Shown here: positions 3,080 through 28,808 of the stretch, in pieces
Numbering within the stretch: position 1 is the first letter of the stretch
Layout of the letters: each line of letters begins with the position of its first letter
DNA from: an uncultured Ruminiclostridium sp.
Lineage (GTDB): Bacteria > Bacillota > Clostridia > Oscillospirales > Ruminococcaceae
Assembly: GCA_905235805.1 (NCBI GenBank)
Contig: CAJOMV010000133.1
Coordinates: 1 to 32,801 of the forward strand
Direction of reading: 5' to 3'
Length of the DNA stretch: 32,801 bases
The notes under the pieces: generated by a model
The model's input: only the letters and a program-made list of their open reading frames with translations
Databases searched by the model: none
What the model was told of the DNA's origin: nothing
Made by a program: the position numbers and the translations under genes

Positions 3080-4078
3080 TCATTTGCTGAGAGTTTCTCT
3101 GAGTACCTCGTAATTTTCGCGCATGAGCGATATATATGTCGCGCCCGCGTCCGTCTGCGCACGATTCACGGACTGAAGGGAGTCGAGCTCCGCTATCGTC
3201 TGGTCTTTCGCCTGCGTGCTGTTTATGACAGTCTGCGCGACGGACTTGTCGGAGCCCTCTATCGTGTACACCGTCCCGCACCCGAGCTCATCGAGCTTCT
3301 GCGAGAGGAATACTATCGTCTCAAAGCTTGCCTCCGTTTCGGCGGAGCAGCCCGCGAACGCCGCGTAATAATCGAGCCCGTAGTCCTCGGTGAAGTAGCG
3401 GAAGGGGAACCTGTCACCGAATATGAGCGTTTTTTCGGACACCGCGCCGAGCATCTCCGCAAAGTCGCTGTCGAGCTTGTCAAGCTCGGACAGGTACGCG
3501 GCGAGGTTCGCGCTGTAAGCCTCGGCGTTGGCTGGGTCGAGCTTTCTAAGCTCATCGGCGATATCGGAGCATATCAGCTTCGCGTTGCGCACGGAGAGCC
3601 AGACGTGCTCGTCGTATTCTTCCTCTTCCTCCTCGCCTTCGTCCTCTTCTTCTTCCTCCTCGGGCATCATACCCTCTTTAATTTCCTCGGTCTTTGCGTT
3701 GTCACCGACAGCTTCGAGCATATTGATGACCCGCATATCCTTGTTGACAGCACCCGCGAGCGCGTCCTCCACCCACTTGTCGGATTCTCCGCCCGCGTAT
3801 ATGAACAGGTCACAGTCCGATATCCTGATGATGTCGTCCGCGGTGGGCTGGAAGTTGTGCAGGTCGATACCGCTTTCGAGCAGGTAGGTGATATCGGCGT
3901 TGTCCGCGTTGCTGCCCAATATCTGCCGCACCCAGTCGTAACCCGAAAAGACTGTGCAGACTATGCTGAGCTTTCCGCTTTCAGCGGCTTCGCCCGCGGC
4001 AGTGCTGCCGCAGCCCGCGAGAAGTGATACAGCCGTGAGTACGGCTGCTATTGATATAGTGTGTTTATTTGTGAACAT
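3080..4078 (-). CDS. Metal (Zn/Mn) ABC transporter substrate-binding lipoprotein with acidic loop
   Basis: Extracytoplasmic solute-binding protein of cluster A-1 (ZnuA/TroA-like), 332 residues. A signal peptide ends in a lipobox, LLAGC with Cys23. Candidate metal ligands are His74 (DLHNFQPT) and His158 (DEHVWLS). At the third-ligand site, where ZnuA proteins have His, the segment is GDRFPFRYF (221-229). Between the first two ligands, where ZnuA usually carries a His-rich loop, residues 140-157 are almost all Glu/Asp. GGAGG lies 9 bases before the ATG. The gene is 76 bases downstream of the small Cys/His membrane protein and 11 bases upstream of surE. No permease or ATPase gene is adjacent, so it either serves a transporter encoded elsewhere or acts alone. 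The family is sure; the metal is not. Confidence 0.9.
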   Translation of the reverse strand: MFTNKHTISIAAVLTAVSLLAGCGSTAAGEAAESGKLSIVCTVFSGYDWVRQILGSNADNADITYLLESGIDLHNFQPTADDIIRISDCDLFIYAGGESDKWVEDALAGAVNKDMRVINMLEAVGDNAKTEEIKEGMMPEEEEEEDEGEEEEEEYDEHVWLSVRNAKLICSDIADELRKLDPANAEAYSANLAAYLSELDKLDSDFAEMLGAVSEKTLIFGDRFPFRYFTEDYGLDYYAAFAGCSAETEASFETIVFLSQKLDELGCGTVYTIEGSDKSVAQTVINSTQAKDQTIAELDSLQSVNRAQTDAGATYISLMRENYEVLRETLSK

Positions 4079-4650: not shown

Positions 4651-5022
4651 ATGAAGATAATTATCAAAAACAAATCGGAGCTGCCGATCTATGAGCAGAT
4701 CGAACAGCAGATGAAAACGCAGATACTTGAGGGGACTATTCCAGCGGACGAGCAGCTGCCCTCGATACGGCAGCTCGCCAAGGATCTCAGGATAAGCGTC
4801 ATCACCACCACCCGCGCCTACAACGACCTCGCAGAGGAGGGCTTCATCATCTCCGTCGCGGGAAAGGGCTATTTCGTCGCCCCGCGGGACAATGAGCTGA
4901 TGCGGGAGCGTATGCTCTTTGAAATGGAGGACGGTCTCGAGAAAGCTGTCACCAATGGGCGCAACGCGGGGCTCACAAACGATGAAATAATGGAAGCTTT
5001 GAAGAAATTTCTGGAGGAATGA
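4651..5022 (+). CDS. GntR family transcriptional regulator, YtrA subfamily
   Basis: A 123-residue regulator. The winged helix-turn-helix covers about residues 10-75 and includes the signature PIYEQIEQQM, then QLPSIRQLAKDL and the wing GKGYFV. The C-terminal part is only a short helical dimerisation region of about 45 residues with no ligand-binding domain. That is typical of the YtrA subfamily, whose members usually repress an adjacent ABC transporter operon. AGGAG lies 6 bases before the ATG. The stop overlaps an ATG of the next gene and the GGAGG for that gene lies inside this one, so the two are translationally coupled. The inducing signal is unknown; in related systems it is often a cell-wall-active peptide antibiotic. 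Confidence 0.95.
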   Translation: MKIIIKNKSELPIYEQIEQQMKTQILEGTIPADEQLPSIRQLAKDLRISVITTTRAYNDLAEEGFIISVAGKGYFVAPRDNELMRERMLFEMEDGLEKAVTNGRNAGLTNDEIMEALKKFLEE

Positions 5023-5024
5023 TC

Positions 5025-5894
5025 ATGGAGAATATTCTTGAAATTAAGGGTCTGAACAAGGCGTACGACGGTTTTGCGCTGAGGGACGTGACCTTTGCAC
5101 TGCCAAAGGGCTACATAATGGGATTTGTCGGACAGAACGGCTCCGGCAAGACCACCACTATCCGCTCCATTCTCAACATGGCAAAGATCGACAGCGGCAG
5201 TATAAGTGTGTTCGGACTTGACAGCGTGACCGACACCATAGCCATAAAGGAGCGTCTCGGCGTAGTCTTCGACAGCCTCTATCTCGCGGAGCACCTGAAC
5301 GTAAAGCTGATAGAAAAGCAGATGAAGCCATTCTACAAGGACTGGAGCAGTGAGGAGTTCTTCCGTCGTATCAAGGAATTCGACTTACCCGACAACAAGC
5401 GGGTGGGCGATTTCTCGAAGGGCATGAAGATGAAGCTGATGATAGCCATAGCGCTGTCCCACGGCGCGGAGCTGATGATACTCGACGAGCCCACCAGCGG
5501 ACTTGACCCTGTGGCGCGGGACGAGCTTCTCGATATCCTCGCGGAGTACATCGAGGACGAGAACAGGGGAGTGCTCTTCTCCACTCATATCACCGCGGAC
5601 GTTGAACGTATCGCGGATTACGTTACCATACTGCATAACGGAAAGGTCTGGTTCACGGGAGAAAAGGACGATCTCTCGGAGAAATACGCGGTCATCAAGG
5701 GTGCCGAGAAGGATATCCCCACAGCTCTCAAGGAAAAGATGATAGGCTTCCACGCGTACCGCAACGGCTTCGAGGCGCTTATACCTACCGACGACTTATC
5801 GGGCATACCCTCTTCTCTCGAATACGAGAAGGCAAGCATCGACGAAATTCTCGTCTACATTGCAAAGGAGGATAAAAATGGGCGACATAGTTAA
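5025..5894 (+). CDS. ABC transporter ATP-binding protein
   Basis: A 289-residue nucleotide-binding subunit of an ABC-2 type exporter. Walker A is GQNGSGKTT (36-44), the signature is a degenerate FSKGM (130-134) in place of LSGGQ, Walker B is LMILDEP (150-156), and the switch His is His188 in STH. About 100 further residues follow the ATPase core. An ATG at 5019 is also in frame, but GGAGG (5013-5017) is 1 base from it and 7 bases from 5025, so 5025 is the likely start. It should power the two membrane proteins encoded next. Its last 17 bases overlap the following gene. Confidence 0.95.
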   Translation: MENILEIKGLNKAYDGFALRDVTFALPKGYIMGFVGQNGSGKTTTIRSILNMAKIDSGSISVFGLDSVTDTIAIKERLGVVFDSLYLAEHLNVKLIEKQMKPFYKDWSSEEFFRRIKEFDLPDNKRVGDFSKGMKMKLMIAIALSHGAELMILDEPTSGLDPVARDELLDILAEYIEDENRGVLFSTHITADVERIADYVTILHNGKVWFTGEKDDLSEKYAVIKGAEKDIPTALKEKMIGFHAYRNGFEALIPTDDLSGIPSSLEYEKASIDEILVYIAKEDKNGRHS

Positions 5895-6609
5895 AGTAAT
5901 GCGCATGGACTTCATTACCTCCGCAGGCAGTGTGACAGCAAACGGCAAGGGTGAGCTTATCCTCGGCATACCGCTGCTTCTGCTGTTTCTCGCAATGCCG
6001 CTGTTTTTAAGCCCTTTACTAAGCTTCTACCTGATATTCGCGGCTATGGTGCTGGTTATACCTCTCCAGAACACCGCAAAGGGCGACCTCGGGCACCTGT
6101 ACGGCATTCTCCCCGTGAAGCGGGGGAACATTACACGGGCGCGGTTCGCGTACATCTTCCTGATATACCTCGTGTCGGAGCTTGTTTCCTTCCTGATAGC
6201 GTGGATATCCATTCTTCTGAACCTCAACAGACTTCTCCCCGATGACTCGGCGCTTGTGGAGATAGGGAGAGAATACTACGATTCAGCGAAGCTACCCGAG
6301 ATAGGAGTGGTGTTCGTCGGGTTCACCATGTTCTTCTGCTTTATGTTCTCATTTATGGAGATGATGGGGCAGATACACGGCAGAGAGAACGAGATGAAGA
6401 TACTGTTCATCTTCCTTGCGGGGATAGTTGTAGTCGTTCTCGGCTTCACATGGCTCGCAAGTATCGGGATAATACCGTATATGGACTTTTCGGGTATGTC
6501 TGAGCCAGAGGCGTTTCCTACCTTCGTTATCATTCACCTCGTCGTCGGAGCGCTGTGTGTACTGTTCAGCGAGATCACCGCCGCGAAAATGGCGGCACGG
6601 GAGCTTTGA
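5878..6609 (+). CDS. ABC-2 type permease subunit 1
   Basis: A 243-residue polytopic membrane protein with about six hydrophobic segments. These include a Leu/Pro-rich stretch near residues 28-62 and later helices ending with FVIIHLVVGALCVLF. AAAGGAGG lies 6 bases before the ATG at 5878, which rules out the earlier ATG at 5860. The gene overlaps the ATPase gene by 17 bases. It shares an opening pattern (a short amphipathic MRMDF/MRIDL segment) and general layout with the next gene, so the two probably form a heterodimeric channel. The substrate is unknown. Confidence 0.88.
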   Translation: MGDIVKVMRMDFITSAGSVTANGKGELILGIPLLLLFLAMPLFLSPLLSFYLIFAAMVLVIPLQNTAKGDLGHLYGILPVKRGNITRARFAYIFLIYLVSELVSFLIAWISILLNLNRLLPDDSALVEIGREYYDSAKLPEIGVVFVGFTMFFCFMFSFMEMMGQIHGRENEMKILFIFLAGIVVVVLGFTWLASIGIIPYMDFSGMSEPEAFPTFVIIHLVVGALCVLFSEITAAKMAAREL

Positions 6610-6620
6610 GGAGGTGCGCC

Positions 6621-7403
6621 ATGCAGAAATACATTGACCTTATGCGCATCGACCTGTTAACCATGAAGGGTGACAAGAACAGTATGCGCTCGATGCTGAT
6701 ACTTCTGTTCGTGGGAAGCATTGCCGGGGAGATATTTGTGTCTCCCATGTTCGGCTTCATCGGTATGCTGATGGTTGGCGGTATGATCGTCGCCACATGG
6801 TATCAGAGCCAGTCGAAATGCCACACGGCAAAGCTGTTCGGACTTCTGCCGGTGTCGAGAAAGGATATCGTTGCCGCGAGATTTATGCTGTTCATCGGGC
6901 TGTTCCTCGCTATGAGCGTTGTGATGTACGCGTTCATGGAACTGTCGCTGGTGCTGGGTATACACAAGGAGATAGCGGGGGACATGCAGGCTATGCTTGA
7001 TAAAACGGGCGCCGATATTGATTTCGGCAGCGCGTGCAGATTGGGCTTCTTCGTATTCTTCGATTTCGGTATGTTTTTGGTAGCCGCGTCACTGAAGGGC
7101 TATTTTACCGCCCCCGCGGCATATGAGACGGCAGCGGGACTGGGTACCGCCACATCGAAGATGAACGCAAAGGGCGCGCTGACAGCTTTCGTTATTCTCA
7201 TAACCGCGATAGTGCTGTCCCTGTTTTTCAGCGGAGTGATATACCTCGGAACGGCGGGGGCTGTCATATTGCAGATATTCATACAGCTTTTCACCGCGGG
7301 CGGTGGTATCATGTTCGGGCTTGTGATGATAACGCTGGCTGGGTTCTCGGCATACTACAATTATCTCTGCACTGTTATCGCGTATGAAGACGCGGAAATT
7401 TAA
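6621..7403 (+). CDS. ABC-2 type permease subunit 2
   Basis: A 260-residue polytopic membrane protein that begins MQKYIDLMRIDLLTMKG, similar in pattern to the first permease. About six hydrophobic segments follow. Its cytoplasmic segment KLFGLLPVSRKDIVAARF parallels HLYGILPVKRGNITRARF in subunit 1, which supports a paralogous permease pair. GAGGAGGTG lies just before the ATG at 6621, only 11 bases past the previous stop. An in-frame ATG at 6555 lies inside the first permease gene and was rejected. Confidence 0.9.
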   Translation: MQKYIDLMRIDLLTMKGDKNSMRSMLILLFVGSIAGEIFVSPMFGFIGMLMVGGMIVATWYQSQSKCHTAKLFGLLPVSRKDIVAARFMLFIGLFLAMSVVMYAFMELSLVLGIHKEIAGDMQAMLDKTGADIDFGSACRLGFFVFFDFGMFLVAASLKGYFTAPAAYETAAGLGTATSKMNAKGALTAFVILITAIVLSLFFSGVIYLGTAGAVILQIFIQLFTAGGGIMFGLVMITLAGFSAYYNYLCTVIAYEDAEI

Positions 7404-14091: not shown

Positions 14092-17000
14092 ATGAATAAA
14101 AACAACTATCTGAAAACAGCGGCATTCTTTGCTATGTGCATACTGCTGAATATCGGGGGAAAGTATCTGTCGATACTGTTAAGCCTGCCGGTGTGGCTCG
14201 ACTCCTTCGGTACGGCGCTCACAGCCTACGGCTTCGGTCCGGTATGCGGCGCGGTGGTGGGCTTCGCGGGGAATGTGATATACGGAATGAGCGACGGAGT
14301 TTCCCACATTTACAGCATCACGAGCATAGTTATCGGCATCGTGATAGGCTTGTCGGCGCGGAAGGGACGCTTTGAGACCATACTGGGGACTATGACCGCG
14401 AGTATGCTGGTCACGCTGTCCTCGATAGTGGTGTCGGTGCCGCTTAATCTGCTGTTCTATGAGGGAATGACGGGAAATGTGTGGGGCGACGGCGTGATAG
14501 GCTTTCTCGGCGACCATGGCATACCCCGCCTGCTTTCCGCGGTGGTAGGGGAGTTCTATGTGGATTTCCTCGACAAGGTGACGGCGCTGATGGTGCTGTT
14601 CGGTGTGATAAAGCTCCGCAGAAGGCTGAAGAACGGCAGAATGGAGCAGCACAAGGCACAGCATTCCGCCGCCGCGAAGGTGACGGCGCTGTTCGTGTGC
14701 GGAGCCTCGGTGCTGGCGGTGCTTAATACCGGCGCGAGCGCTGCCGGAAACGGCGGGAGCGACTACAACGGCTATGTGCGCACGGTGTACAGCAGCGACA
14801 ACGGGCTCCCGTGCGGCGAGGCGAACGACATAGTGCAGACCAAGGACGGTATACTGTGGGTAGGTACATACGCCGGGCTTTACCGCTATAACGGCAGTGA
14901 GTTCAGGTGGACGGACTTTGAGTCTGTCAGGAATGTGAACTGTCTCTTCGTGGACGAAGAGGGAAGGCTCTGGATAGGAACGAACGACAACGGAGTTTCC
15001 ATAAGCATCAACGAGAGCATCGCGAACGTAATAGACAAGGACGACGGGCTGCCGTCGGACTCCGTGCGCTGCATAACCCAGACGGCGGACGGGAACTACT
15101 ATATCGGAACCACCGAGAGCATGGCTGTGCTCACACTGAACAACGGTCTGCGCCTTCTCAATGTGATACCGCAGGTACATTACGCGGTAACGCTGACCGC
15201 CGACAAGGACGGACACGCCGCAGCTGTCAGCGCCGACGGAATGCTGTTCCTCCTAGGAAACGGCGAGATACTTACCTCCAAGGAGATATCCGGCAGCGAC
15301 GACATCTACACCTGCTGCACCTTCGGAGAGGACGGCACTCTCTACGCCGGCACCTCGGGAGACAGGATATTCGTGTATGAGCTCTCCGACGGAAGCCTTG
15401 TGCAAAAAAAGACGATAACCACCTCAGGTATCAGCAGCATACAGTCCGTAAACTTCATCGGCAGCGGCTTGGGCATTGTCTGCGCCGACAGCGGCGTGGG
15501 CGCGATCGATGAAAACGGCGGCTTCACCCGCATTAATACCGACGAATTCAACAACTCCATAGACAATATGACCGTGGATTATCAGGGAAATCTCTGGTTC
15601 ACCTCGTCCCGTCTCGGGCTTTTAAGGCTGTCGCAGTCGGTGTTCACGGACATTTACCGTAAGTACGGGCTGACCGGCAAGGTCGTCAATTCCACCGAGG
15701 AATGGAACGGCTGCCTGTATTTCGGCACCGACAACGGGCTCGATGTTGCTGATATGAGTGCCGTGTCTCCCTTGACGAACGAGCTCACCGAGATGCTCGA
15801 CGGTGTCCGCATAAGATGTGTCCGCAGGGATTCGAGGAATGACCTGTGGCTCTGCACATACGGAAAGGGTCTTCTGAAGGTCTCTGCCGACGGGAAGGTT
15901 GAGATATACGACGGCTCGAACGGTTCCTTCGGCAACCGTGCGAGAACGATAATGGAAATGTCGGACGGCACTATGGTCGCAGCGGGCGATACGGGCATGA
16001 CCTTTATCGGACAGAGCGGCATCTTACGGACGATAAGCTACGGCGACAAGCTCTCCAATGCCATGATACTCAGCCTGCTGGAGACCGATGCCGGTGCGCT
16101 CCTCGCGGGGACCGACGGCGACGGTATCGCGGTCATCAAAAACGGCGAGGTGGTGCGCACGCTTACCCGCTATGACGGGCTCTCGTCGGGAGTTATCCTC
16201 CGTATGACAAAATGCACCGACGGTGAGCATATACTCATCGTGACCAGCAACGGGCTCTGCTGCATGGACGGGGACTACAATATCCATACACTCGAGAACT
16301 TCCCGTATTTCAACAACTACGATATCTGGACGAGCGAGAGCGGACGGCTCTTCGTATTAAGCAGCGCCGGTATATATGTGGCGGACGAGAAGGACGTCAT
16401 AAACGACAAGCCCGAAATGCGCTGTGAGATCCTCGACGCGAAGAGCGGTCTCAACGCTTCCCTTACCGCGAACTCATGGAACTACTGCGACAGTGACGGC
16501 GACCTCTACCTTTCCGCCGATACGGGCGTATATACGGTAAATACCTCCGATTACGCGGTGCAGAGACGGTCGTACAGAATGCTCGTTACGTCTGTGAAGC
16601 TCGACGGCACTGCGTATCCCGTTGAGCGCGGCGAGACCTTCGAGATCGCCAGAGATGTCGGCAGGATAGAGATATTCCCCGAGGTGATAAACTATACTAT
16701 CGAGGACCCGTATGTGAGCTATTACCTTGAGGGCTTTGATGACGAGCCCACAATAGTCTCCCAGAGCGCTCTCACTTCCGTTACCTATACCAATCTGCCC
16801 TCGGGAAGCTATACCTTCCATATAGCGGTGCTAGACAGAGATCTGAACGATACTCTCGAGGAGAGCTCCTATTCCTTTTTAAAGAACAGGGAGATATACG
16901 ACAACGACTGGTTCATCGTATATATGCTCGTGGTAGCGATGATAGCGGTGGCTTGGCTGACATGGTTCATCGCCAAGTCGCAGATACAGCGCACGCTCCT

Positions 17001-17643
17001 GATACAGCAGAAGCAGCTCGAGCTTGCCGAGAAGCAGGTGCAGATGGGCAACGAGACTATCCTCGCGATAGCAAGGACCGTCGATGCAAAGGACGAGAAT
17101 ACCAGCCAGCATTCGCAGCGCGTGTCGGAGTACGCTGTCAAGATAGCCGAGCAGCTCGGCTTCAGCAAGGAGGAACGCGAGAATCTCCGCAAGGCTGCTC
17201 TCCTCCACGATATCGGAAAGATCGGTATCCCCGACCGTATCCTCAACAAGCCCTCACGGCTTACCGATGAGGAATACGCGATAATGAAAACACACGTTAC
17301 CCGCGGCGGTGAGATACTCAAGGACTTCACCCTTATAGAAAACGTGGTGGACGGCGCGCTGTATCACCATGAGCGCTATGACGGGACCGGCTATGCCAGC
17401 GGGCTCAAGGGCGAGGAAATACCGATATACGGTAGAATAATCGGTGTGGCGGACGCGTTTGACGCTATGACCGCCAACCGTGTATACAGAAAAAAGCTCG
17501 ACATCGATTTTGTTATGGGTGAGCTTGAGCGATGCAAGGGCACACAGTTCGACCCTGTTATGGCAGATATCATGATAAATCTTGTGAAGAACGGCAAGAT
17601 CGACATAGAAAGCATTTACGGAAAGGAGACGGAACAGAAATGA
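14092..17643 (+). CDS. Giant sensor: ECF S-component-like membrane domain + beta-propeller + Y_Y_Y + HD-GYP
   Basis: An 1183-residue membrane protein. Residues 1-178 are polytopic (about six helices) and resemble an ECF-transporter substrate-binding S component, with WLDSFGT and GFGPVCGAVVGFAGN. A further helix (196-216) leads to an extracytoplasmic region of two-component-regulator-type propeller repeats (about 225-820), with blades such as GILWVGTYAGLYRYNG and GRLWIGTNDNGV. A Y_Y_Y-like domain (about 830-930) and a helix (939-960) follow. A cytoplasmic HD-GYP domain (about 985-1175) ends the chain, with His1039-Asp1040 (HDIGKIG), His1068, His1092-His1093 and Asp1121. The GYP motif reads GYA (1100-1102). 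HD-GYP domains usually hydrolyse cyclic di-GMP; metal ligands are kept, so activity is plausible. Its stop overlaps the start of the BMP-family gene. Confidence 0.92.
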   Translation: MNKNNYLKTAAFFAMCILLNIGGKYLSILLSLPVWLDSFGTALTAYGFGPVCGAVVGFAGNVIYGMSDGVSHIYSITSIVIGIVIGLSARKGRFETILGTMTASMLVTLSSIVVSVPLNLLFYEGMTGNVWGDGVIGFLGDHGIPRLLSAVVGEFYVDFLDKVTALMVLFGVIKLRRRLKNGRMEQHKAQHSAAAKVTALFVCGASVLAVLNTGASAAGNGGSDYNGYVRTVYSSDNGLPCGEANDIVQTKDGILWVGTYAGLYRYNGSEFRWTDFESVRNVNCLFVDEEGRLWIGTNDNGVSISINESIANVIDKDDGLPSDSVRCITQTADGNYYIGTTESMAVLTLNNGLRLLNVIPQVHYAVTLTADKDGHAAAVSADGMLFLLGNGEILTSKEISGSDDIYTCCTFGEDGTLYAGTSGDRIFVYELSDGSLVQKKTITTSGISSIQSVNFIGSGLGIVCADSGVGAIDENGGFTRINTDEFNNSIDNMTVDYQGNLWFTSSRLGLLRLSQSVFTDIYRKYGLTGKVVNSTEEWNGCLYFGTDNGLDVADMSAVSPLTNELTEMLDGVRIRCVRRDSRNDLWLCTYGKGLLKVSADGKVEIYDGSNGSFGNRARTIMEMSDGTMVAAGDTGMTFIGQSGILRTISYGDKLSNAMILSLLETDAGALLAGTDGDGIAVIKNGEVVRTLTRYDGLSSGVILRMTKCTDGEHILIVTSNGLCCMDGDYNIHTLENFPYFNNYDIWTSESGRLFVLSSAGIYVADEKDVINDKPEMRCEILDAKSGLNASLTANSWNYCDSDGDLYLSADTGVYTVNTSDYAVQRRSYRMLVTSVKLDGTAYPVERGETFEIARDVGRIEIFPEVINYTIEDPYVSYYLEGFDDEPTIVSQSALTSVTYTNLPSGSYTFHIAVLDRDLNDTLEESSYSFLKNREIYDNDWFIVYMLVVAMIAVAWLTWFIAKSQIQRTLLIQQKQLELAEKQVQMGNETILAIARTVDAKDENTSQHSQRVSEYAVKIAEQLGFSKEERENLRKAALLHDIGKIGIPDRILNKPSRLTDEEYAIMKTHVTRGGEILKDFTLIENVVDGALYHHERYDGTGYASGLKGEEIPIYGRIIGVADAFDAMTANRVYRKKLDIDFVMGELERCKGTQFDPVMADIMINLVKNGKIDIESIYGKETEQK

Positions 17644-18851
17644 ATGAAACGAAAAAGACCTATCTGACCGTCGCCTTAACGGCACTGATGCTGATACTGA
17701 TATTTGCCGTGATACACTTCATACGGCTGAATACAGATACCTCCCGAGATACCATAAAGGTAGGCTTTGTGTACGAGGGAGACGAGAGCACTCCCTATAC
17801 CGCGAACTTCATAAAGGCGCAGAGAGCTCTTGAAAAGCAGCTCGGTGACAAAGCTGAGATCATCGTCATGAGCAATACCCATGAGACCGCGGGAGGAGGA
17901 AAGGCTCTCGAGGATCTCATAGACGCGGGCTGCGATATCATATTCACCACCAGCTTTGGCTATGGCGAGGCGGCAAAGCGCTGCGCCGGTGAGCACCCGG
18001 AGGTACAGTTCTGTCAGGCGACCTGCTATAACTCCGGCGATGACCCCGTTTACAGCAACTACCATACCTTCATGGGTGAGATTTATCAGGGCAGATACAT
18101 CTCCGGCGTGATAGCCGGTATGAAGCTGCGGGAGATGATAGACAGCGGAAAGCTGTTTCCAGAGCAGGCAAAGATAGGCTATGTCGCGGCATACCCATAT
18201 CCCGAGGTCATCTCGGGATATACAGCGTTCTTCCTCGGAGTGCGATCGGTAGTTCCCGAGACTGTCATGGAGGTCAAGTACACCGATACATGGTCGAGCT
18301 ACTCCGTAGAAAAGAAATGTGCAGATGAGCTCATCGAGCGCGGCTGCGTCATCATCTCTCAGCACTCCGACACCACAGGTCCCGCTGTGGCATGCGAGGA
18401 AGTTTTCGGTAAGAAGGAGGTCTACCATATCGGCTATAACCAGAGTATGATAGATGTGGCTCCGACTACCTCCCTCATCAGCTCCCGCATCAACTGGGCT
18501 CCTTATATCCTCGGGGCGTGTCAGGCAGTGCTGGAGAACAGGCGGATAGAGGACCGCGTTCGCGGCAATGTACACGGAAACGATATCGGTGCGGGCTTTG
18601 AAATGGGCTGGGTCGAGATGCTCGAGCTCAACTCAATTGCGGCAGCCGACGGCAGCAATGAGACTATCCGTCGCCTAATAAATGAATTCAATTCCGGAAA
18701 GGTCGATGTGTTCAGGGGAGATTATATCGGTGTCGACCCCTTCGACGACACCAATACCTACGATCTGAAAAACGGTTATGCCGAGAACGAAAAGACCTCC
18801 GCACCTATGTTCGGATATGTGCTGAAGGATGTTATCACAGTAGTCGGATAA
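17640..18851 (+). CDS. BMP-family (PnrA/Med-like) ligand-binding protein, membrane-anchored
   Basis: A 403-residue protein. Residues 8-28 form one hydrophobic helix with no lipobox Cys, so the protein is likely held by an uncleaved anchor, facing outward. The rest matches the basic membrane protein family of nucleoside-binding proteins: VGFVYEGDES, GCDIIFTTSFGYGE, GEIYQGRYISGVIAGM, IGYVAAYPYPEVISGYTAFFLGVRS (shown in part), a QHSDTTGP segment and a WAPYILGACQAVL segment. The ATG overlaps the HD-GYP stop (ATGA), and AAAGGAG lies 11 bases upstream, inside the partner gene. No ATPase or permease gene is nearby. Translational coupling suggests it passes ligand information to the HD-GYP sensor (inference). 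Purine nucleosides are the usual ligands of the family. Confidence 0.9.
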   Translation: MNETKKTYLTVALTALMLILIFAVIHFIRLNTDTSRDTIKVGFVYEGDESTPYTANFIKAQRALEKQLGDKAEIIVMSNTHETAGGGKALEDLIDAGCDIIFTTSFGYGEAAKRCAGEHPEVQFCQATCYNSGDDPVYSNYHTFMGEIYQGRYISGVIAGMKLREMIDSGKLFPEQAKIGYVAAYPYPEVISGYTAFFLGVRSVVPETVMEVKYTDTWSSYSVEKKCADELIERGCVIISQHSDTTGPAVACEEVFGKKEVYHIGYNQSMIDVAPTTSLISSRINWAPYILGACQAVLENRRIEDRVRGNVHGNDIGAGFEMGWVEMLELNSIAAADGSNETIRRLINEFNSGKVDVFRGDYIGVDPFDDTNTYDLKNGYAENEKTSAPMFGYVLKDVITVVG

Positions 18852-19906: not shown

Positions 19907-21922
19907 ATGAATTGCTTGAAATGCGGCAGACCACTGAATAACGGAAAAAAATGCCCGTCGTGCGGGTTTGATATCACGGCTCCGGGAGCCGCGGTATGGC
20001 TCCCGTTCGAGCTCGGGGAGGACGAGACAGCTGCGCTGAACGCATGGCTGAGCGGCGGGGAAGCCGACGGAAGCGATGACGAGACAGAGCTGGTGGGCGA
20101 TGATAACACTGTAATTGCAGGCGTGGCGGCAGATGATGAGCTCACAGAGCTCAGCCCGGTGAAGCCCGCGGAATCACCCTTCGGAGAAGCGGTGTACCGC
20201 AAGCCCCCGAAGCCCTACAATTCCGCCGAGGTAATGGCGGAGGTGCCGCGCCCGACAAGAGCTCCCCAGAAGAAAAAACAACAGCAGCAGAAGAAGTCCG
20301 GCAAGGGAAAGATCATTGCCGCGGGTATAGGCGCTGTGGCGGTCATAGGCATCATCATTGCCGTGGCGAACGGCGGCAAGAGCGATACTCCCGAGGTCTC
20401 GGACACTAATAATAATAGTACATCTCAGCAGGCTGCCGCGACGCAGTCCGCGGAGAGCAATGAGCCCGGCGCGGAGCCCGCGGAGAGCGCGGCGACCGAC
20501 AAGAACTCCGCCGCCGGCAGCTCCGACACAAGCACTCCTCATGTTACCACCCCGGATGCTGCCGAGGAGGAGTTTGAGGACGAGGTGTCCGAGGCTATCG
20601 CGCGCGGAGGCAGACTTACCTTCCCAGAGGGCGAGTATACCGGCGAGATCAGCAACGGCAAGCGCGAAGGCTACGGCATGATGACGTGGAACAGTGGAGA
20701 TGTGTACTCCGGCAAATGGAGCAACGACATCATGGACGGCAGAGGCAGAATGACATGGGCTAACGGGGACGAGTATGTCGGCGACTGGGTCGAGGGTATA
20801 CGCACAGGCTCCGGCAGATATACATGGGCGGACGGCTCGGTCTATGACGGACATTTCGAGGACGGCGTTCTCTCGGGCGAGGGCGTTGAGTACTACGCGA
20901 GCGGCAATGTTTATTCCGGCTCATGGAAGAACGGCAAGCCCGACGGTAAGGGACGTTACAAGTTTTACAGCGGAGCTGTGTATGAAGGCGCGTTTGTCGC
21001 GGAGTTCTTCCACGGCTACGGAAAGATGACATACTCCGACGGCAGAGTGTACGACGGAAACTGGGAATACGACAAGCGCAGCGGTGAAGGCACATACACC
21101 GACACGAACGGCGAGGTCTATACCGGCAGCTGGTCGGACGACAAGCGCAACGGAAACGGCACGCAGTCCTACCTCAACGGTGATGTGTACTCCGGTAACT
21201 GGGTGAACGATATCCGCAGCGGACAGGGCAGACTTACCCGTGACAACCACGAGACCTACAACGGCAACTGGGTCAATGATGTCCGTGCGGGACAGGGTAC
21301 CTACACCTACGCAAACGGTCAGGTATATACCGGCAACTGGACCAACAACATGAGAAACGGCTCCGGCAAGCTAACCTTCCCGAACGGGGAGACCTATACC
21401 GGCACCTTCACGAACGATAAGGTCACCGGCTCGGGTACATACAAGTACACGAACGGCGACTCTTATACCGGCGATATCGTCAACGGCGTCCGTCAGGGCA
21501 GCGGCAAGCAGATCTACCACGACGGCGGCGTATACGACGGCGGCTGGAAGAACGATATGCGCAACGGCAAGGGCAAGTACAACTGGTCCGACGGCACCAG
21601 CTACGACGGCGACTGGGTAGATGACAGCATGACCGGTCAGGGAACATATATCTGGACGAGCGGCAACCGCTATGTGGGTGCGTTCGTGGACGGCAAGCTC
21701 AACGGCAAGGGTACCAAGTACTATGCCGACGGAAGAGTGAGCACGGGTACATGGGTGAACGACGGACTTGAGGGCGAAGGCACCTGCACATGGCCCGACG
21801 GCAACAAGTACACCGGAGAGTGGGCTGACGGTCTCCAGAACGGTTACGGTGTTCTGAGCGACAAAAACGGTCACACCATTTACGCAGGTTACTGGGAAAA
21901 CGGTGAACGCATCAGCGGATAA
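19907..21922 (+). CDS. Zinc-ribbon, single-pass membrane protein with 18 full MORN repeats
   Basis: A 671-residue protein. The N-terminal zinc ribbon has Cys3, Cys6, Cys16 and Cys19. It is followed by an acidic and then a basic, Gln/Lys-rich linker (up to about 134), one membrane helix (about 135-155), and a Ser/Ala/Glu-rich spacer (158-235). From residue 244 to the end there are 18 full 23-residue MORN repeats and a partial nineteenth, with consensus Y-x-G-x-W-x-N-x-x-x-x-G-x-G-x-x-x-x-x-x-G. The basic linker before the helix suggests the zinc ribbon is cytoplasmic and the MORN array outside (inference). MORN arrays bind lipids or proteins or form rods. A terminator follows 5 bases after the stop. 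The promoter is that of the preceding gene. Confidence 0.92.
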   Translation: MNCLKCGRPLNNGKKCPSCGFDITAPGAAVWLPFELGEDETAALNAWLSGGEADGSDDETELVGDDNTVIAGVAADDELTELSPVKPAESPFGEAVYRKPPKPYNSAEVMAEVPRPTRAPQKKKQQQQKKSGKGKIIAAGIGAVAVIGIIIAVANGGKSDTPEVSDTNNNSTSQQAAATQSAESNEPGAEPAESAATDKNSAAGSSDTSTPHVTTPDAAEEEFEDEVSEAIARGGRLTFPEGEYTGEISNGKREGYGMMTWNSGDVYSGKWSNDIMDGRGRMTWANGDEYVGDWVEGIRTGSGRYTWADGSVYDGHFEDGVLSGEGVEYYASGNVYSGSWKNGKPDGKGRYKFYSGAVYEGAFVAEFFHGYGKMTYSDGRVYDGNWEYDKRSGEGTYTDTNGEVYTGSWSDDKRNGNGTQSYLNGDVYSGNWVNDIRSGQGRLTRDNHETYNGNWVNDVRAGQGTYTYANGQVYTGNWTNNMRNGSGKLTFPNGETYTGTFTNDKVTGSGTYKYTNGDSYTGDIVNGVRQGSGKQIYHDGGVYDGGWKNDMRNGKGKYNWSDGTSYDGDWVDDSMTGQGTYIWTSGNRYVGAFVDGKLNGKGTKYYADGRVSTGTWVNDGLEGEGTCTWPDGNKYTGEWADGLQNGYGVLSDKNGHTIYAGYWENGERISG

Positions 21923-24046: not shown

Positions 24047-25822
24047 TCAGTCTCCCTTCCATATCAGGCTCATTATCGTTACATCGTCGAACGGGTCATT
24101 CTCAGGCTGGAATACCTCGACCTCCCGTTTAAGGTCCTTGACGATGCGCTCACAGGAGCTCTTTGCGTTGCGCTCAAGCACCTCCATGAGCCTGTCCATA
24201 CCGAAACGCTTTCCGTCGGAGGATTTAGCCTCCGGCACACCGTCGGTGTACAGGAACAGCCTGTCGCCCTTTTTAAGCGTTATATTTTCGTTTTCGAACT
24301 TTGTATTCTCTTCAGCGGCAAGCGGAGGGCAGTGGTCTTTCTTTATGACCTTGACCATTCCGTTCTGTACGCCTATGATAGGGTACTCATGACCCGCGTT
24401 CGCGTACTCGACAATTCCCGTTTTAAGGTCGAGGATACCCAGCCACACGGTGATGAACAGTCCGCCGCCGTTGTTCTGACAGAGGATATTGTTCACTTCA
24501 TAAAGCACCTGTGCGGGGCTGCCGCCGAGCATTACCTTGTCGCGCAGCACAGCCTTTGCGACTACGCAGAACAGCGCCGCGGGAACGCCCTTGCCCGAAA
24601 CGTCCGCCATTACGAGAGCAAGGTGGTCGTCGTCGATGAAGAAGAAGTCGTAGAAGTCGCCGCCGACCTCCTTCGCGGGGGTCATAGCCGCGTACAGCTC
24701 TATATCGCTGCGCTTCGGGAAATCCGTCGGCAGCATATCCGCCTGTATTTTCGTCGCGACTCCGAGCTCCGCTGTGAAACGCTCCTTCTCGGCTGTTATT
24801 GTCCGGATATCGTTTATATGCTGGTCAAGCTCTCGCACCATTTCCGCGGTCTGCCTTGCAAGGGAGGCTATCTCGTGTTTGCCGGCAGCGTTGGCTTCTA
24901 TTTTTTCCGCCACCGCGGGGTCTTTGTTTGCGGCATATTCGCGGACCTCCGATTCGAGGTCTCCTATACGCTTGATGTATGCCCTGTTGATGAATATGAG
25001 CATAAGCAGCATACTCAGTATCAGTATTGCTCCGATCATCACGAACTGCATGAGCGCATTACGCAGTATTGCATCGTTCACAGCGGCTATGCTTATTTCG
25101 GCGGCAATGACACCCAGCTTTTCGCCGTTTATATACAGCGGCATATAATAGCCGTAAGTCTTTCCGTATTCATTATCATAGGCATCATAGCCTTCGGGGC
25201 TTTCCCCGGTGTTCCATGCCTCCCACATCAGCCGGTGAGACTCTGCGGGCTGAGGATATTCAAAGCAGACATTCAGCAGACTCTCATCGTCTTCGCTCGG
25301 CTCTCTTACCCCGTCAAGGAGAAACATCATATAATCCTCACCGAGCTGCGGTCTGGGAACAACATAGTATGTATATTCGATATTGAACGCTTCCTTGGCT
25401 TTCTCAAATTCGAGAAGATAATACTCGTGCTTGTATTCCGCGTAAGCGAGCTGTATATCATGGTCGAGCTCGTCAAAGGCTATCGTTTCACCGAGTATCT
25501 TATCGGGATAACGCTCTTCAAACATACGTTCAAAATTTGAACGGGCAACGTCCGGGTTCGTAAAATCTATCGGTATCCGCATCTCATGCCCGTATTCAAG
25601 ACAGAAACGCTGATAAAGGGGAAAGTCATTGCCGTCCGTAACGAGCAGCTTCGACAGATAATCCGCTATATATTTGATGCTGCTCTCACACTGCTGTCTG
25701 TACAGCTCATTCTGATTTTCGTATGTGGCGAACGCGCTGAACGCAAGTGCCACAAGCGTAAATATCAGGAATATCGCAGCAAATCTTACCAACAATCCAT
25801 CTCTTTTTCTTATTTTGCTCAT
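24047..25822 (-). CDS. Membrane PP2C-type serine phosphatase (SpoIIE/RsbU family) with sensor and HAMP
   Basis: A 591-residue protein. Helices at 11-33 and 257-279 flank an extracytoplasmic sensor region of about 220 residues (34-256). A HAMP-like linker and helical region (280-350) lead into a SpoIIE-type phosphatase domain (about 375-588). Metal-binding acids are visible: Asp389 (VGGDFYD), Asp407 (MADVSGKG), Asp527 (YTDGV) and Asp579/580 (FDDVT). Such enzymes dephosphorylate anti-sigma-factor antagonists (STAS proteins) in partner-switching pathways; no STAS or anti-sigma gene is nearby. It starts 13 bases after the stop of the dCache hybrid kinase, so the two are co-transcribed and may read related signals. 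The ribosome site is weak (GGGG about 10 bases upstream). Confidence 0.93.
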   Translation of the reverse strand: MSKIRKRDGLLVRFAAIFLIFTLVALAFSAFATYENQNELYRQQCESSIKYIADYLSKLLVTDGNDFPLYQRFCLEYGHEMRIPIDFTNPDVARSNFERMFEERYPDKILGETIAFDELDHDIQLAYAEYKHEYYLLEFEKAKEAFNIEYTYYVVPRPQLGEDYMMFLLDGVREPSEDDESLLNVCFEYPQPAESHRLMWEAWNTGESPEGYDAYDNEYGKTYGYYMPLYINGEKLGVIAAEISIAAVNDAILRNALMQFVMIGAILILSMLLMLIFINRAYIKRIGDLESEVREYAANKDPAVAEKIEANAAGKHEIASLARQTAEMVRELDQHINDIRTITAEKERFTAELGVATKIQADMLPTDFPKRSDIELYAAMTPAKEVGGDFYDFFFIDDDHLALVMADVSGKGVPAALFCVVAKAVLRDKVMLGGSPAQVLYEVNNILCQNNGGGLFITVWLGILDLKTGIVEYANAGHEYPIIGVQNGMVKVIKKDHCPPLAAEENTKFENENITLKKGDRLFLYTDGVPEAKSSDGKRFGMDRLMEVLERNAKSSCERIVKDLKREVEVFQPENDPFDDVTIMSLIWKGD

Positions 25823-25835
25823 CTGTTTTACCCCG

Positions 25836-28808
25836 TTATACGGATATCTGTCCGATGACTGCCGCTATCTGCGCCCCGAGCATCCTGCACCGGAACAGCA
25901 GATCGTCCATTTCCTTGTTTATGACATCGATATTGCCCTTGTTCCCGGCGTTTTCCAGCCGCCTCGCGTAGCGGCGTATCTGCTCCGCGCCTATGGTGCG
26001 GGAGGCGCCCTTCAGGCTGTGCAGCATTACCGTTGTGTTCTCGATATCTCCGCACAGCCAGTAGTGGGTCATCTTGTCGAGATGCACGTTCATCATTTCC
26101 GAATAAGCCCGCAGCAGCTCGAGGTAAGCTTCCTCGGAGCCTGCATTGTTGATGCCCTGCACAGCGTCAAGCTCGATGATATTGAATACCGCGTCTGGAA
26201 TGACAGCCTTCGGGGGCTCCTTCGGCTTTACTGTCACAGCGGCTCTCAGCTTTTCGGGAGGCAGATACTCGCATATCATCTCCTCCAACTTCGCTGACTC
26301 TATCGGCTTGGTGAGGTAGTCGGTGAAGCCCGCCTCGATGTACTTTTCCCTCGCGCCGGAAATGGCGTTCGCGGTAAGGCATATCATCGGGGTATCGCGG
26401 TTGGGACCGCTTTCGGAGGCTTTTATCTCCCGGAGCGTTTCGATACCGTCCTTCTGCGGCATCATGTGGTCGAGGAAGATGATATCGTACTTGTTTTTAA
26501 GGGCGAGCAGTATGCCGTCGTCTCCGCTCTCGGCAGTGTCTATCTTTACCTGTGTGCTTTTGAGCAGGCTTGTGAATACCAGCAGGTTCATGACCGTGTC
26601 ATCGACCACGAGTATGTGCGCGTCGGGGGCGGTGAACTTCTCGTGATACTTCGTGCGGGAGGCAATGGAGCTGCGGTGAGCCTCCTCATAGTTGCCGAGC
26701 TCGTCCCATTTGCGGACCTGCTGCTTCAGCGAGAAGCCGAAGGTGGAGCCCTCTCCGTAAACGCTGCTCACATCGAGTCTGCTGTCCATCATCTCCAGCA
26801 GTCTCTGCGTGATGTTCATGCCGAGACCTGTCCCCTCGACGTTGCGGTTGCGTTCCTCTTCAATGCGCTCGAACTTGGAGAACAGCTTAGCCATATCCTC
26901 CTGCCTGATGCCGATGCCGGTGTCCTTGACAGCTATCTTGAGCATGATGCAGTCTGGCTCGTCCGGCAGCTTTTCATAGGTCGCGCTGAAGGTGACGCTG
27001 CCCTTTTCGGTGTACTTGGCGGCATTGGTGAGGATATTGGTGATGACCTGCTTTATGCGCACCTCATCGCCGTGGAGAAGGTGCGGCATTGTGCTGTCGA
27101 AATCGGTTATGAGCATGAGCCCCTTATTGTCGAGACGGGTCTGTATCATGCCCACGAGGTCGCTGAACACGGTGGCGAGGTCATAATCCACCGGGATTAT
27201 CTCCATTTTGCCGGCTTCTATCTTCGAGAAGTCGAGGATATCGTTTATCAGTCCGAGAAGGGTATTGCCGGCTGTGCGAATGCTCTCGGAGTAGGATAAG
27301 ACGGCGGGGTCATTGCTCTCACGGAGCACCATTTCGTTCATGCCGAGCACGGCGTTGATAGGCGTGCGTATCTCATGGGACATATTCGAAAGGAACGACG
27401 ACTTTGCCTCGTTCGCTGCCACCGCGCGCTCGGAGATGTCTATGAGCTTCTCACGGTCCTTCTTTTCGGCGTCGATATCCTCCAGCATCCACAGCACATG
27501 TGAGAGCTTTCCGTCCGAAGTACGCTGTGACTCCACAAATCTTGCCCTGACCCATCTGTAGCCGTGCGACTGATATTCGAGGACGAGGTTGCCCTTACCC
27601 GCGAGGCGCTCCTCGAGTGTCGAGAGGTCCACGAAATCTATCGCCGCCTGCTTGGAGGGAGTATCGGGCATACTCTCCATTATACGGTTGAAGGTCTCCT
27701 GGACGTCGCTCTCGTCTGGTGTGAACTGTGTCAGGAAGCGGGGGTTGAAATTCTTTATCTGTATGAGGCTGTTGTTTATGATGTCGATGTCACTTAAGGA
27801 AAGGTAGATGTCCGCGGCGGAGGAAAGCTGGGAATTGAGGCGCTCGGCGAGTATCTCCTTTCTGCCTGTGCGTATGAGGATATAGACCACCGTAGCGAAC
27901 AGCAGCACCGATATGATGATGCTCACCAGGAACATTATGCGTATTGGCATGTACTCGTCCGAGGTCGCGACAGCGGAAACGCTGACCCAGCCGCCGTGTA
28001 CGGGAACTATGTACGCGGTATAGGCATGACCGCCGAAGGATACATCGAAGTACTGTTCTTCGAAGCCTGCCATTTTCGCGGCGATAGCCGTGCCGACCGT
28101 GCCGGTCTCCTCGAGGTAGGATTTTCCGAGCTCCTCGGTGTCGGAATGAGCAACTACCGAGTAGGTGCTGTCGAGCACCATTTCGGTGAGGTTGGTGCTG
28201 CTTGCGGACTGCTGTTCGATGACCTGCTGTATATGCTCGAGGGATACATCGAACATAACGATGCTTTCTCCGTCGGACATGGTTTTTGCGATAGTCATCA
28301 GTATATTTCCGGTATGTACGTCCTTGTACGGGTCAACGAGCACGAAGTTTCCCTTGTCCGCCATAGCCTTCTTGTACCACGGGCGCTCTGCAGGTACATA
28401 GTCGGGAATGCGTATCTTACACTGCTTTCCATCGAAGATCCTGCCGCCGATGAGGGAGTAGAGCTTTGTAGTCTCCGAGCCTATGGTATTTTTCAGCGAG
28501 GCATCCTGCTGTATCATGAAATCGAGTATCTCCTCGTCCGGAGCTCCGCTGACTATCAGATCGTCAAGGGTATATTCCGCTATAGAAAGGGCGTTCGAGC
28601 AGTCGGATAGGAAGGAGTCCACTATCTTTGCCGAGCGCTCCGCCGAGATCTGTCCGGTATTTATCATATTCTCATTCATGGAATTAAGGAGCAGGACATT
28701 GTACGTCACGATAACAACAGCCACAAAAACGGCTATCACTATCGAGATGATAAGTGTACCCTTGCTTCGGTTTTTTATGATGTCGCGGAAAGATATTTTG
28801 TTATTCAT
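25836..28808 (-). CDS. Hybrid sensor histidine kinase: dCache-PAS-HisKA-HATPase-REC-HPt
   Basis: A 990-residue membrane kinase. Helices at 18-40 and 291-313 flank a double Cache sensor (about 45-285), with the typical ERPWYKKA (141-148) and VDPYKDVHTG segments. A PAS-like fold follows (about 325-448). The phosphoacceptor is His478 in SHEIRTP. ATPase boxes include NILTNAAKY, DTGIG (629-633) and GTGLG (659-663). The receiver has Asp736/737, phospho-Asp780 (FLDHMMP) and Lys834. The HPt domain carries His930 (LHSLKGASR). The kinase core is strongly similar to that of the kinase at the left edge, so the two are paralogues. Cache domains usually bind small amino acids or carboxylates. The gene has its own promoter and leads an operon with the phosphatase. 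Confidence 0.95.
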   Translation of the reverse strand: MNNKISFRDIIKNRSKGTLIISIVIAVFVAVVIVTYNVLLLNSMNENMINTGQISAERSAKIVDSFLSDCSNALSIAEYTLDDLIVSGAPDEEILDFMIQQDASLKNTIGSETTKLYSLIGGRIFDGKQCKIRIPDYVPAERPWYKKAMADKGNFVLVDPYKDVHTGNILMTIAKTMSDGESIVMFDVSLEHIQQVIEQQSASSTNLTEMVLDSTYSVVAHSDTEELGKSYLEETGTVGTAIAAKMAGFEEQYFDVSFGGHAYTAYIVPVHGGWVSVSAVATSDEYMPIRIMFLVSIIISVLLFATVVYILIRTGRKEILAERLNSQLSSAADIYLSLSDIDIINNSLIQIKNFNPRFLTQFTPDESDVQETFNRIMESMPDTPSKQAAIDFVDLSTLEERLAGKGNLVLEYQSHGYRWVRARFVESQRTSDGKLSHVLWMLEDIDAEKKDREKLIDISERAVAANEAKSSFLSNMSHEIRTPINAVLGMNEMVLRESNDPAVLSYSESIRTAGNTLLGLINDILDFSKIEAGKMEIIPVDYDLATVFSDLVGMIQTRLDNKGLMLITDFDSTMPHLLHGDEVRIKQVITNILTNAAKYTEKGSVTFSATYEKLPDEPDCIMLKIAVKDTGIGIRQEDMAKLFSKFERIEEERNRNVEGTGLGMNITQRLLEMMDSRLDVSSVYGEGSTFGFSLKQQVRKWDELGNYEEAHRSSIASRTKYHEKFTAPDAHILVVDDTVMNLLVFTSLLKSTQVKIDTAESGDDGILLALKNKYDIIFLDHMMPQKDGIETLREIKASESGPNRDTPMICLTANAISGAREKYIEAGFTDYLTKPIESAKLEEMICEYLPPEKLRAAVTVKPKEPPKAVIPDAVFNIIELDAVQGINNAGSEEAYLELLRAYSEMMNVHLDKMTHYWLCGDIENTTVMLHSLKGASRTIGAEQIRRYARRLENAGNKGNIDVINKEMDDLLFRCRMLGAQIAAVIGQISV

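Follow-up and report, generated by a model that had tools for sequence, protein, structure and literature searches.

What does a binding protein of the BMP family serve when its gene overlaps that of a large membrane-bound HD-GYP protein? This question is raised by a 32,801-nucleotide stretch of an uncultured Ruminiclostridium sp. genome (GenBank assembly GCA_905235805.1, contig CAJOMV010000133.1; the whole stretch is called the window below), where a receptor gene is directly followed by a gene for a BMP (PnrA-like) binding protein. The signals of many enzymes acting on cyclic di-GMP (c-di-GMP) are unknown; here, purines as a candidate signal, a candidate co-receptor, and a receptor open to testing can all be named from sequence. 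We consider it likely that the two genes form one dedicated sensor of extracellular purines, in which the BMP protein is a co-receptor controlling c-di-GMP breakdown by the HD-GYP receptor. That the pair is real, conserved, and dedicated to signalling is highly probable, and the purine ligand and the docking of the BMP protein on the receptor are what we infer, on good grounds, from the data given below.

A conserved pair of overlapping genes

The two genes overlap by the four bases ATGA, as had been read in a first-pass annotation of the window, and are arranged as follows:

14092-17643, forward strand: receptor gene; 1183 amino acids with an S-component-like membrane domain, a two-component-regulator propeller, a Y_Y_Y domain, a transmembrane helix, a linker, and an HD-GYP domain
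17623-17628, forward strand: AAGGAG, which probably serves the BMP gene as ribosome-binding site (read from the sequence)
17640-17643, forward strand: ATGA, receptor stop overlapping the BMP start (read from the sequence)
17640-18851, forward strand: BMP (PnrA-like) binding-protein gene; 403 amino acids with an N-terminal anchor helix (residues 10-28) and without a lipobox

Eleven bases separate the end of AAGGAG from the BMP start, which is placed here at 17640; the listing of open reading frames (ORFs) opens this ORF at an upstream in-frame ATG (17532).

Genome contigs were scanned with the BMP protein, and the best 80 of 119 relatives were kept. At 78 of these 80 loci, the receptor gene, or its C-terminal part where the contig begins, is located directly upstream on the same strand; the S-component-like domain, propeller, and HD-GYP domain are found in one frame at 66 loci. 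At one of the two remaining loci (L008), the contig begins 36 bases before the BMP gene, too close for the upstream gene to be judged; the other (L049) is the sole true exception. With start codons assigned by a script, the genes overlap at 61 of the 78 receptor–BMP junctions, in 30 cases by exactly four bases. As labelled, 14 of the 80 loci belong to Treponema or other spirochaetes and nearly all others to Bacillota, the hosts including rumen and gut Lachnospiraceae, Ruminococcus, and Treponema. The genes remain adjacent and in the same order even where protein identity falls to about 50%, and across the two labelled phyla. No conserved third gene accompanies the pair: the two largest neighbour clusters occur at 18 and 12 of 81 loci and are spread over positions and strands.

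A second sample, drawn separately, comprised 299 genomes of one family centred on genome G087. BMP scores in this sample are bimodal, with 22 matches at or above 538 bits and then none down to 360. A receptor gene is directly upstream of 21 of the 22 upper-tier BMP genes, the remaining one being at a contig end, and of none of the eight lower-tier genes examined. The samples overlap in that 2 of the 22 upper-tier BMPs are identical to rows of the 80. Viewed from the receptor side, 24 top-tier propeller receptors (at or above 826 bits) occur in the 299 genomes; 21 adjoin a BMP gene, and one (in G498) is split by contig ends. No BMP gene was found in the 33 second-tier propeller neighbourhoods fetched from a larger set of second-tier matches. 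The pair is uncommon at the class level, since in 391 genomes of the window's class only the window, G087, and G137 exceed 500 bits.

The association of the two genes is not due to chance. One of the two outcomes by which the first-pass annotation could be contradicted, namely a BMP gene not conserved beside HD-GYP genes, did not occur, the binding-protein gene being encoded with the receptor gene at 78 of 80 and 21 of 22 loci.

Architecture of the receptor

The receptor comprises the following parts:

14113-14646, forward strand: S-component-like membrane domain, about residues 8-185 (NF045596; PF07155 at 0.038; alignment)
14668-14724, forward strand: transmembrane helix before the propeller, residues 193-211 (hydropathy)
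14776-16641, forward strand: propeller region, residues 229-850, presumably outside the cytoplasmic membrane (Reg_prop; alignment)
16714-16854, forward strand: Y_Y_Y domain, residues 875-921 (Pfam)
16915-16971, forward strand: transmembrane helix, residues 942-960 (hydropathy)
17074-17556, forward strand: HD-GYP domain, residues 995-1155 (Pfam; alignment)

Its Pfam matches are HD_5 (4.9e-40), Reg_prop (2e-23), and Y_Y_Y (8.5e-09). The domain order and the hydrophobic helices suggest a membrane receptor with an outer sensory part and an inner c-di-GMP enzyme; the simplest topology would have the S-component-like domain in the membrane, the propeller and Y_Y_Y domain outside, the HD-GYP domain inside, and the BMP protein tethered outside. 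Eight positions of the HD-GYP domain (H1007, H1039, D1040, K1043, H1068, H1092, H1093, and D1121), which we take to be the HD and metal-ligand residues, are invariant in 67 of 67 receptor rows; the P of the GYP motif varies, being A in the window receptor and P in 35 of the 67 rows. Judging by its intact metal-ligand residues, the receptor looks able to hydrolyse c-di-GMP. With 25 GGDEF and 10 HD_5 matches detected in the window's own genome, use of this second messenger there is very likely.

The N-terminal domain, with four helices by hydropathy, is related to a part of another importer class. Receptor residues 12-176 match NF045596 (ECF_S_CD3073, NCBIfam) at 3.1e-19 with 69.3 bits against a family cut-off of 180 bits, a score that indicates a related fold only and not membership in the CD3073 family of energy-coupling factor (ECF) S components. 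The best free relatives of this domain in the 299 genomes are about 200 amino acids long. Twelve of their loci (L202-L213) were chosen among higher-scoring short ORFs. Every one of these twelve genes has beside it an ATPase match and an ORF of about 258 amino acids, which in the one case checked is EcfT-type (Pfam CbiQ). At eight of the loci, a member of the uridine/purine-nucleoside phosphorylase superfamily is adjacent as well (assigned by Pfam at seven and by NCBIfam at L208, the NCBIfam phosphorylase matches all being below equivalog cut-offs). The place of the phosphorylase is taken by an isochorismatase-like ORF at L211 and L212 (by Pfam for L211), and L207 and L210 have neither. Two free relatives score 86 and 102 bits for NF045596, which is also under the 180-bit cut-off.

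Given these ECF-operon surroundings, in most cases including a nucleoside phosphorylase, nucleosides or related compounds are the probable import substrates of the free family. For this reason, the copy built into the receptor may bind a nucleoside or a related compound as well. A substrate class is thereby suggested for the CD3073 ECF S-component family, so far named only as putative.

The predicted ligand of the BMP protein

The first-pass annotation had described the BMP protein as membrane-anchored without a lipobox Cys, in agreement with the single strong hydrophobic helix given by hydropathy (residues 10-28), which contains no Cys. The protein matches Pfam Bmp at 6.1e-27:

17790-18629, forward strand: Bmp domain, residues 51-330, with pocket residues Y53, S105, F106, E189, W218, H242, and D244

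The solved structures closest to it by sequence are 3s99 and AtzT (6pi5). The relevant passages of the AtzT paper report an affinity of AtzT for guanine of about 110 nM, the base being placed between Tyr45 and Trp194 and also contacted by Ser97, Phe98 N, Glu165, Asn218, and Asn220; they add that AtzT takes triazines as well and that adenine was modelled in 3s99 (PMC6834077). Mapped through an alignment with a numbering offset of 5, the guanine contacts correspond to Y53, W218, S105, F106, E189, H242, and D244 of the window protein. Among 100 distinct paired BMPs, W218 is present in all, Y53 and E189 in 97 each, H242 in 96, D244 in 94 (N in the other six), and S105 in 89 (with seven gaps); at the position of F106, a backbone contact in the AtzT mapping, 71 have Y. 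H and D are also found in 3s99 at the positions of H242 and D244.

Since the purine-contacting positions of AtzT are kept in the paired BMPs, a purine base is the most likely ligand predicted for the BMP protein, a nucleoside being possible; on the pocket evidence, purine bases are at least as well indicated as nucleosides. The evidence from the S-component-like domain and that from the BMP pocket point the same way on the ligand.

It is unlikely that the BMP protein senses a compound other than a purine (e.g., another heterocycle or a modified base) and drives the HD-GYP receptor with it. Such a ligand would be in keeping with the triazines taken by AtzT and with a survey that predicts sugar binding for Bmp proteins (PMC9602780, in the passages concerned), but the AtzT-mapped stacking and hydrogen-bonding positions are nearly invariant (89 to 100 of 100, F106 aside), and nucleosides are likewise suggested by the S-component-like domain, the second likely module for binding.

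Separation from the BMP importers

The lower-tier BMPs occur in importer operons. Where long regions were available, 31 of 32 have two permease genes downstream and 32 of 32 an ATPase gene, the exception lying at the stretch edge; in short stretches, an ATPase gene accompanies seven of eight. One importer set was confirmed by Pfam (ABC_tran and two BPD_transp_2). A lipobox-like motif was recognised in all 40 lower-tier BMPs versus 7 of 80 paired ones, and in some of the seven it lies inside the anchor helix. Downstream of the paired BMP gene, none of the 80 loci showed a BMP-type permease (the available sequence reaches at least 3 kb in 54 and less in 26); four of the 80 (L009, L012, L037, and L085) have an ATPase-like ORF without such permeases. 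The window's own genome (80.7% complete) has no BPD_transp_2 match, and no such permease was found in 4 of the 22 paired genomes of the second sample, which are 94-99% complete; a canonical importer role is therefore unlikely in these five genomes at least. Several importer BMP genes are preceded by an ORF of about 190 amino acids, initially read as a phosphoribosyltransferase; as the single copy checked (L088) is Uma2, this ORF was not used as evidence on the ligand.

The separation is also visible in the phylogenies, which were built on samples by a quick method. In the BMP tree (67 rows), the 36 paired rows lie on one side of a branch next to the importers, with a Shimodaira–Hasegawa-like approximate likelihood ratio test (SH-aLRT) value of 100, and the paired clade probably derives from BMP/PnrA importers. 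In the propeller tree (55 rows), the 20 BMP-paired receptors and two solo receptors form one group with support of 100. The BMP and receptor clades coincide except for these two solo receptors. Seven residues conserved in paired BMPs (F144, M145, W324, Y362, L376, L395, and D397) each occur in none of 40 importer-tier rows, and the paired BMP has segments 257-260 and 305-313 that are absent from importer-tier BMPs (comparison of 100 paired with 40 importer-tier rows). The C-terminal tail is shared with importer BMPs, but its residues L376, L395, and D397 are paired-only. F144, M145, W324, the inserts 257-260 and 305-313, L376, L395, and D397 are candidate docking elements.

We rejected an importer as the principal explanation, given that permeases were found neither at the paired loci nor in five genomes and that the lipobox is rare. 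From the set that defines a PnrA/BMP importer of the ATP-binding cassette (ABC) type, the Bmp domain is present, and the ATPase, the BPD_transp_2 permeases, and the lipoprotein signal were not found; the placing of the BMP protein outside an importer is a statement on gene content (80 loci, the own genome, and four others). A modified form of this explanation, in which the BMP protein is still an importer protein that uses a distant permease or supplies the S-component-like domain, so that the pair couples uptake to signalling, appears improbable. Eighteen of the 22 paired genomes have permeases of the class, eight also have an importer-tier BMP, and the S-component-like domain resembles an importer part; nevertheless, the five genomes without such a permease include the window's own, none lies near the 80 loci, the lipobox is replaced by the anchor helix, and importer-tier BMPs bring their own operons.

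The search among relatives for the same gene pair without transporter genes, which the first-pass annotation had proposed, has thus returned a conserved pair and no BMP-type permease, and the second contradicting outcome, a BMP gene usually found beside nucleoside ABC permeases, did not occur either (0 of 80 loci). Since neither outcome occurred, the dedicated sensing unit proposed there is well supported, with the reservation that the annotation mentions neither the S-component-like domain, which is likely a further module for ligand binding, nor the AtzT/3s99 purine pocket. Its remark that no ABC genes are near holds, with the qualification that an exporter-type ABC set is located about 6.7 kb upstream of the pair.

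Proposed mechanism and points against it

We propose that the membrane-tethered BMP protein, no longer a part of an importer, would bind an extracellular purine (a base or nucleoside, as the pocket suggests), close on it, and then dock on or undock from the outer part of the receptor, possibly the propeller or the S-component-like domain. The propeller and the helices would shift and change the activity of the cytoplasmic HD-GYP domain. In this manner, the outside purine supply would set the rate of c-di-GMP breakdown, presumably in this direction of control, and the biological output may be attachment or motility.

Several observations weigh against this proposal. The 80 loci are biased to close relatives, being the best 80 of 119, and most of them are contigs of metagenome-assembled genomes (MAGs), which may be misassigned (L062 and L079 are labelled as named strains). 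At L049, a BMP of the paired clade has a different gene end upstream instead of the receptor, and two of the 24 top-tier receptors (L167 and L168) have no BMP gene, so either partner can be maintained without the other. Of 123 conserved propeller columns, 114 remain in one solo receptor and 111 in the other; with respect to the 5th percentile of the paired receptors, one value is inside and the other slightly under, and the two have only five lost columns in common, which gives no clear indication that a docking face has disappeared. Importer BMPs carry the same pocket residues (35 to 40 of 40, F106 aside), and the pocket is therefore informative on the ligand and not on the role. The survey cited above predicts sugars as the ligands of nearly all its Bmp proteins (PMC9602780, in part). 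Finally, in the 18 paired genomes that bear importer-class permeases somewhere, the BMP protein could possibly be shared with an importer.

As a separate observation, L049 (424-1728) belongs to a Treponema MAG that, going by its label, also has the full pair (L077), and a separate HD_5 protein is encoded downstream on the other strand.

Least probable of all is that the two genes are merely co-transcribed, with unrelated functions kept together by operon economy and no interaction: two receptors and one BMP do occur without a partner, and the contact between the proteins is our inference, but adjacency and order are kept down to about 50% identity and in two phyla with mostly overlapping genes, no other neighbour is conserved, and the two solo receptors are the only departure from matching BMP and receptor clades.

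Beyond the dedicated purine sensor, a broader scheme can be put forward tentatively, and we hold it to be somewhat more doubtful than not. The receptor may have been assembled from parts of two unrelated importers (the BMP protein and the ECF S-component), both turned from transport to sensing, which would read a purine base and a nucleoside on one and the same receptor and feed one c-di-GMP hydrolase, and the S-component–propeller combination may be a general chassis that also accepts a hybrid histidine kinase, GGDEF, or a receiver-linked HD-GYP domain as output and at least one other class of binding proteins (SBP_bac_1, beside L183 and L185). The pair shows how importer parts may become receptors.

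The same parts at other loci

The S-component–propeller chassis was found with other outputs, namely hybrid histidine kinases, HD-GYP with receiver domains, and GGDEF. Two loci (L175, 2471-6355; L176, 1939-5925) encode it with a GGDEF output and no BMP gene beside. At two others (L183, 1110-7203; L185, 3019-9112), which are sisters on the propeller tree, it belongs to hybrid histidine kinases preceded by an SBP_bac_1 lipoprotein gene about 20-30 bases upstream, and no transporter was recognised among the neighbouring ORFs printed. Five further loci (L187-L191) combine an S-component-like HD-GYP protein of about 720 amino acids with a propeller hybrid kinase of 1200-1420 amino acids, and three of the five also have a receiver-like protein.

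BMPs are likewise found in other surroundings. Contig C28 of the window's own genome (G000; L005, 5553-12943) carries a second BMP signalling cluster, in which two tandem anchor-type BMPs without permeases, a hybrid histidine kinase, and a receiver-HD-GYP protein are encoded one after another. Among the loci of 19 additional relatives, one from another genome (L215) is similar in having a BMP with a related hybrid kinase beside it, and an importer ATPase accompanies the remaining 18. As the 67-row tree places the C28 BMPs on long branches and not within the paired clade, the recruitment of BMPs to signalling seems to have occurred more than once. At L120-L125, the BMP domain forms the C-terminal half of a protein of 640-680 amino acids without a predicted hydrophobic helix (Pfam for L121), so these proteins are apparently cytoplasmic, and an intracellular purine sensor is possible. 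Contig C6 of the own genome (L006, 6710-8122) encodes a lipobox BMP with a divergent pocket near peptidyl-prolyl isomerase-like lipoproteins, with no transporter recognised in the stretch.

Other features of the window

Among the scanned ORFs of the window, the ABC genes recognised are limited to the exporter-type set, which belongs to another class than the BMP importers, and a ZnuA-type binding protein. No riboswitch was detected before the receptor–BMP operon, no gathering-level match having been obtained in seven sources; a scan of 231 bases gave one weak match (E 0.21). The features concerned and three further genes are:

3080-4078, reverse strand: ZnuA-type binding protein
5019-7403: exporter-type ABC set, an ABC_tran gene and two ABC2_membrane_5 genes (Pfam; one ABC2_membrane_5 under the cut-off)
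19907-21922: 671-amino-acid protein with 18 MORN repeat matches
24047-25822, reverse strand: SpoIIE-type phosphatase, adjoining the following gene
25836-28808, reverse strand: hybrid histidine kinase with Hpt and a dCache-like sensor (the sensor just under the cut-off)

Comparison with known systems

Binding proteins encoded together with a signalling enzyme are known from LuxP–LuxQ and TorT–TorS, which have a kinase output. The present pair differs from them, and from the C28 cluster, by its predicted output, c-di-GMP hydrolysis. A 2022 census states, in the part concerned, that of 27 families of the periplasmic-binding-protein clan only SBP_bac_3 has been studied in c-di-GMP networks (PMC8846402), and a survey whose relevant passages do not state whether Bmp is included counts 13 of 22 binding-protein families as known stimulators of receptors (PMC9602780). 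The literature search gave no paper on HD-GYP with PnrA, HD-GYP with a regulator propeller, an ECF transporter with HD-GYP, or CD3073, and an earlier report of a BMP–receptor pair is possible.

With AtzT and 3s99, the paired BMP shares the family and the purine-contacting positions, but it has an anchor helix instead of a cleavable export signal. The fold and pocket are likewise common to the BMP/PnrA ABC importers, whereas the paired BMP rarely has a lipobox and is encoded with a receptor gene in place of the permease, which was not found. The first 180 residues of the receptor are related to CD3073-family ECF S components, from which they differ by being fused to a receptor and by scoring under the family cut-off.

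The nearest functional parallel is the NspS–MbaA pair, in which NspS is a PotD-like polyamine protein and MbaA a GGDEF-EAL enzyme. In polyamine sensing of Vibrio cholerae, and also in Sinorhizobium, the ligand state of the binding protein sets the activity of the c-di-GMP enzyme, as the relevant passages describe (PMC8967002). NspS–MbaA joins, and the present pair would join, a binding protein of importer-like descent to a membrane c-di-GMP enzyme. The two systems differ in descent and in construction: instead of a PotD-like protein and a GGDEF-EAL receptor, the pair has a Bmp-family protein with a purine pocket and a receptor composed of an S-component-like domain, a propeller, and an HD-GYP domain, and it is distributed in Bacillota and Spirochaetota. 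The best reading by analogy is that the pair would work like NspS–MbaA with unrelated parts, being neither a homologue of that system nor a BMP importer.

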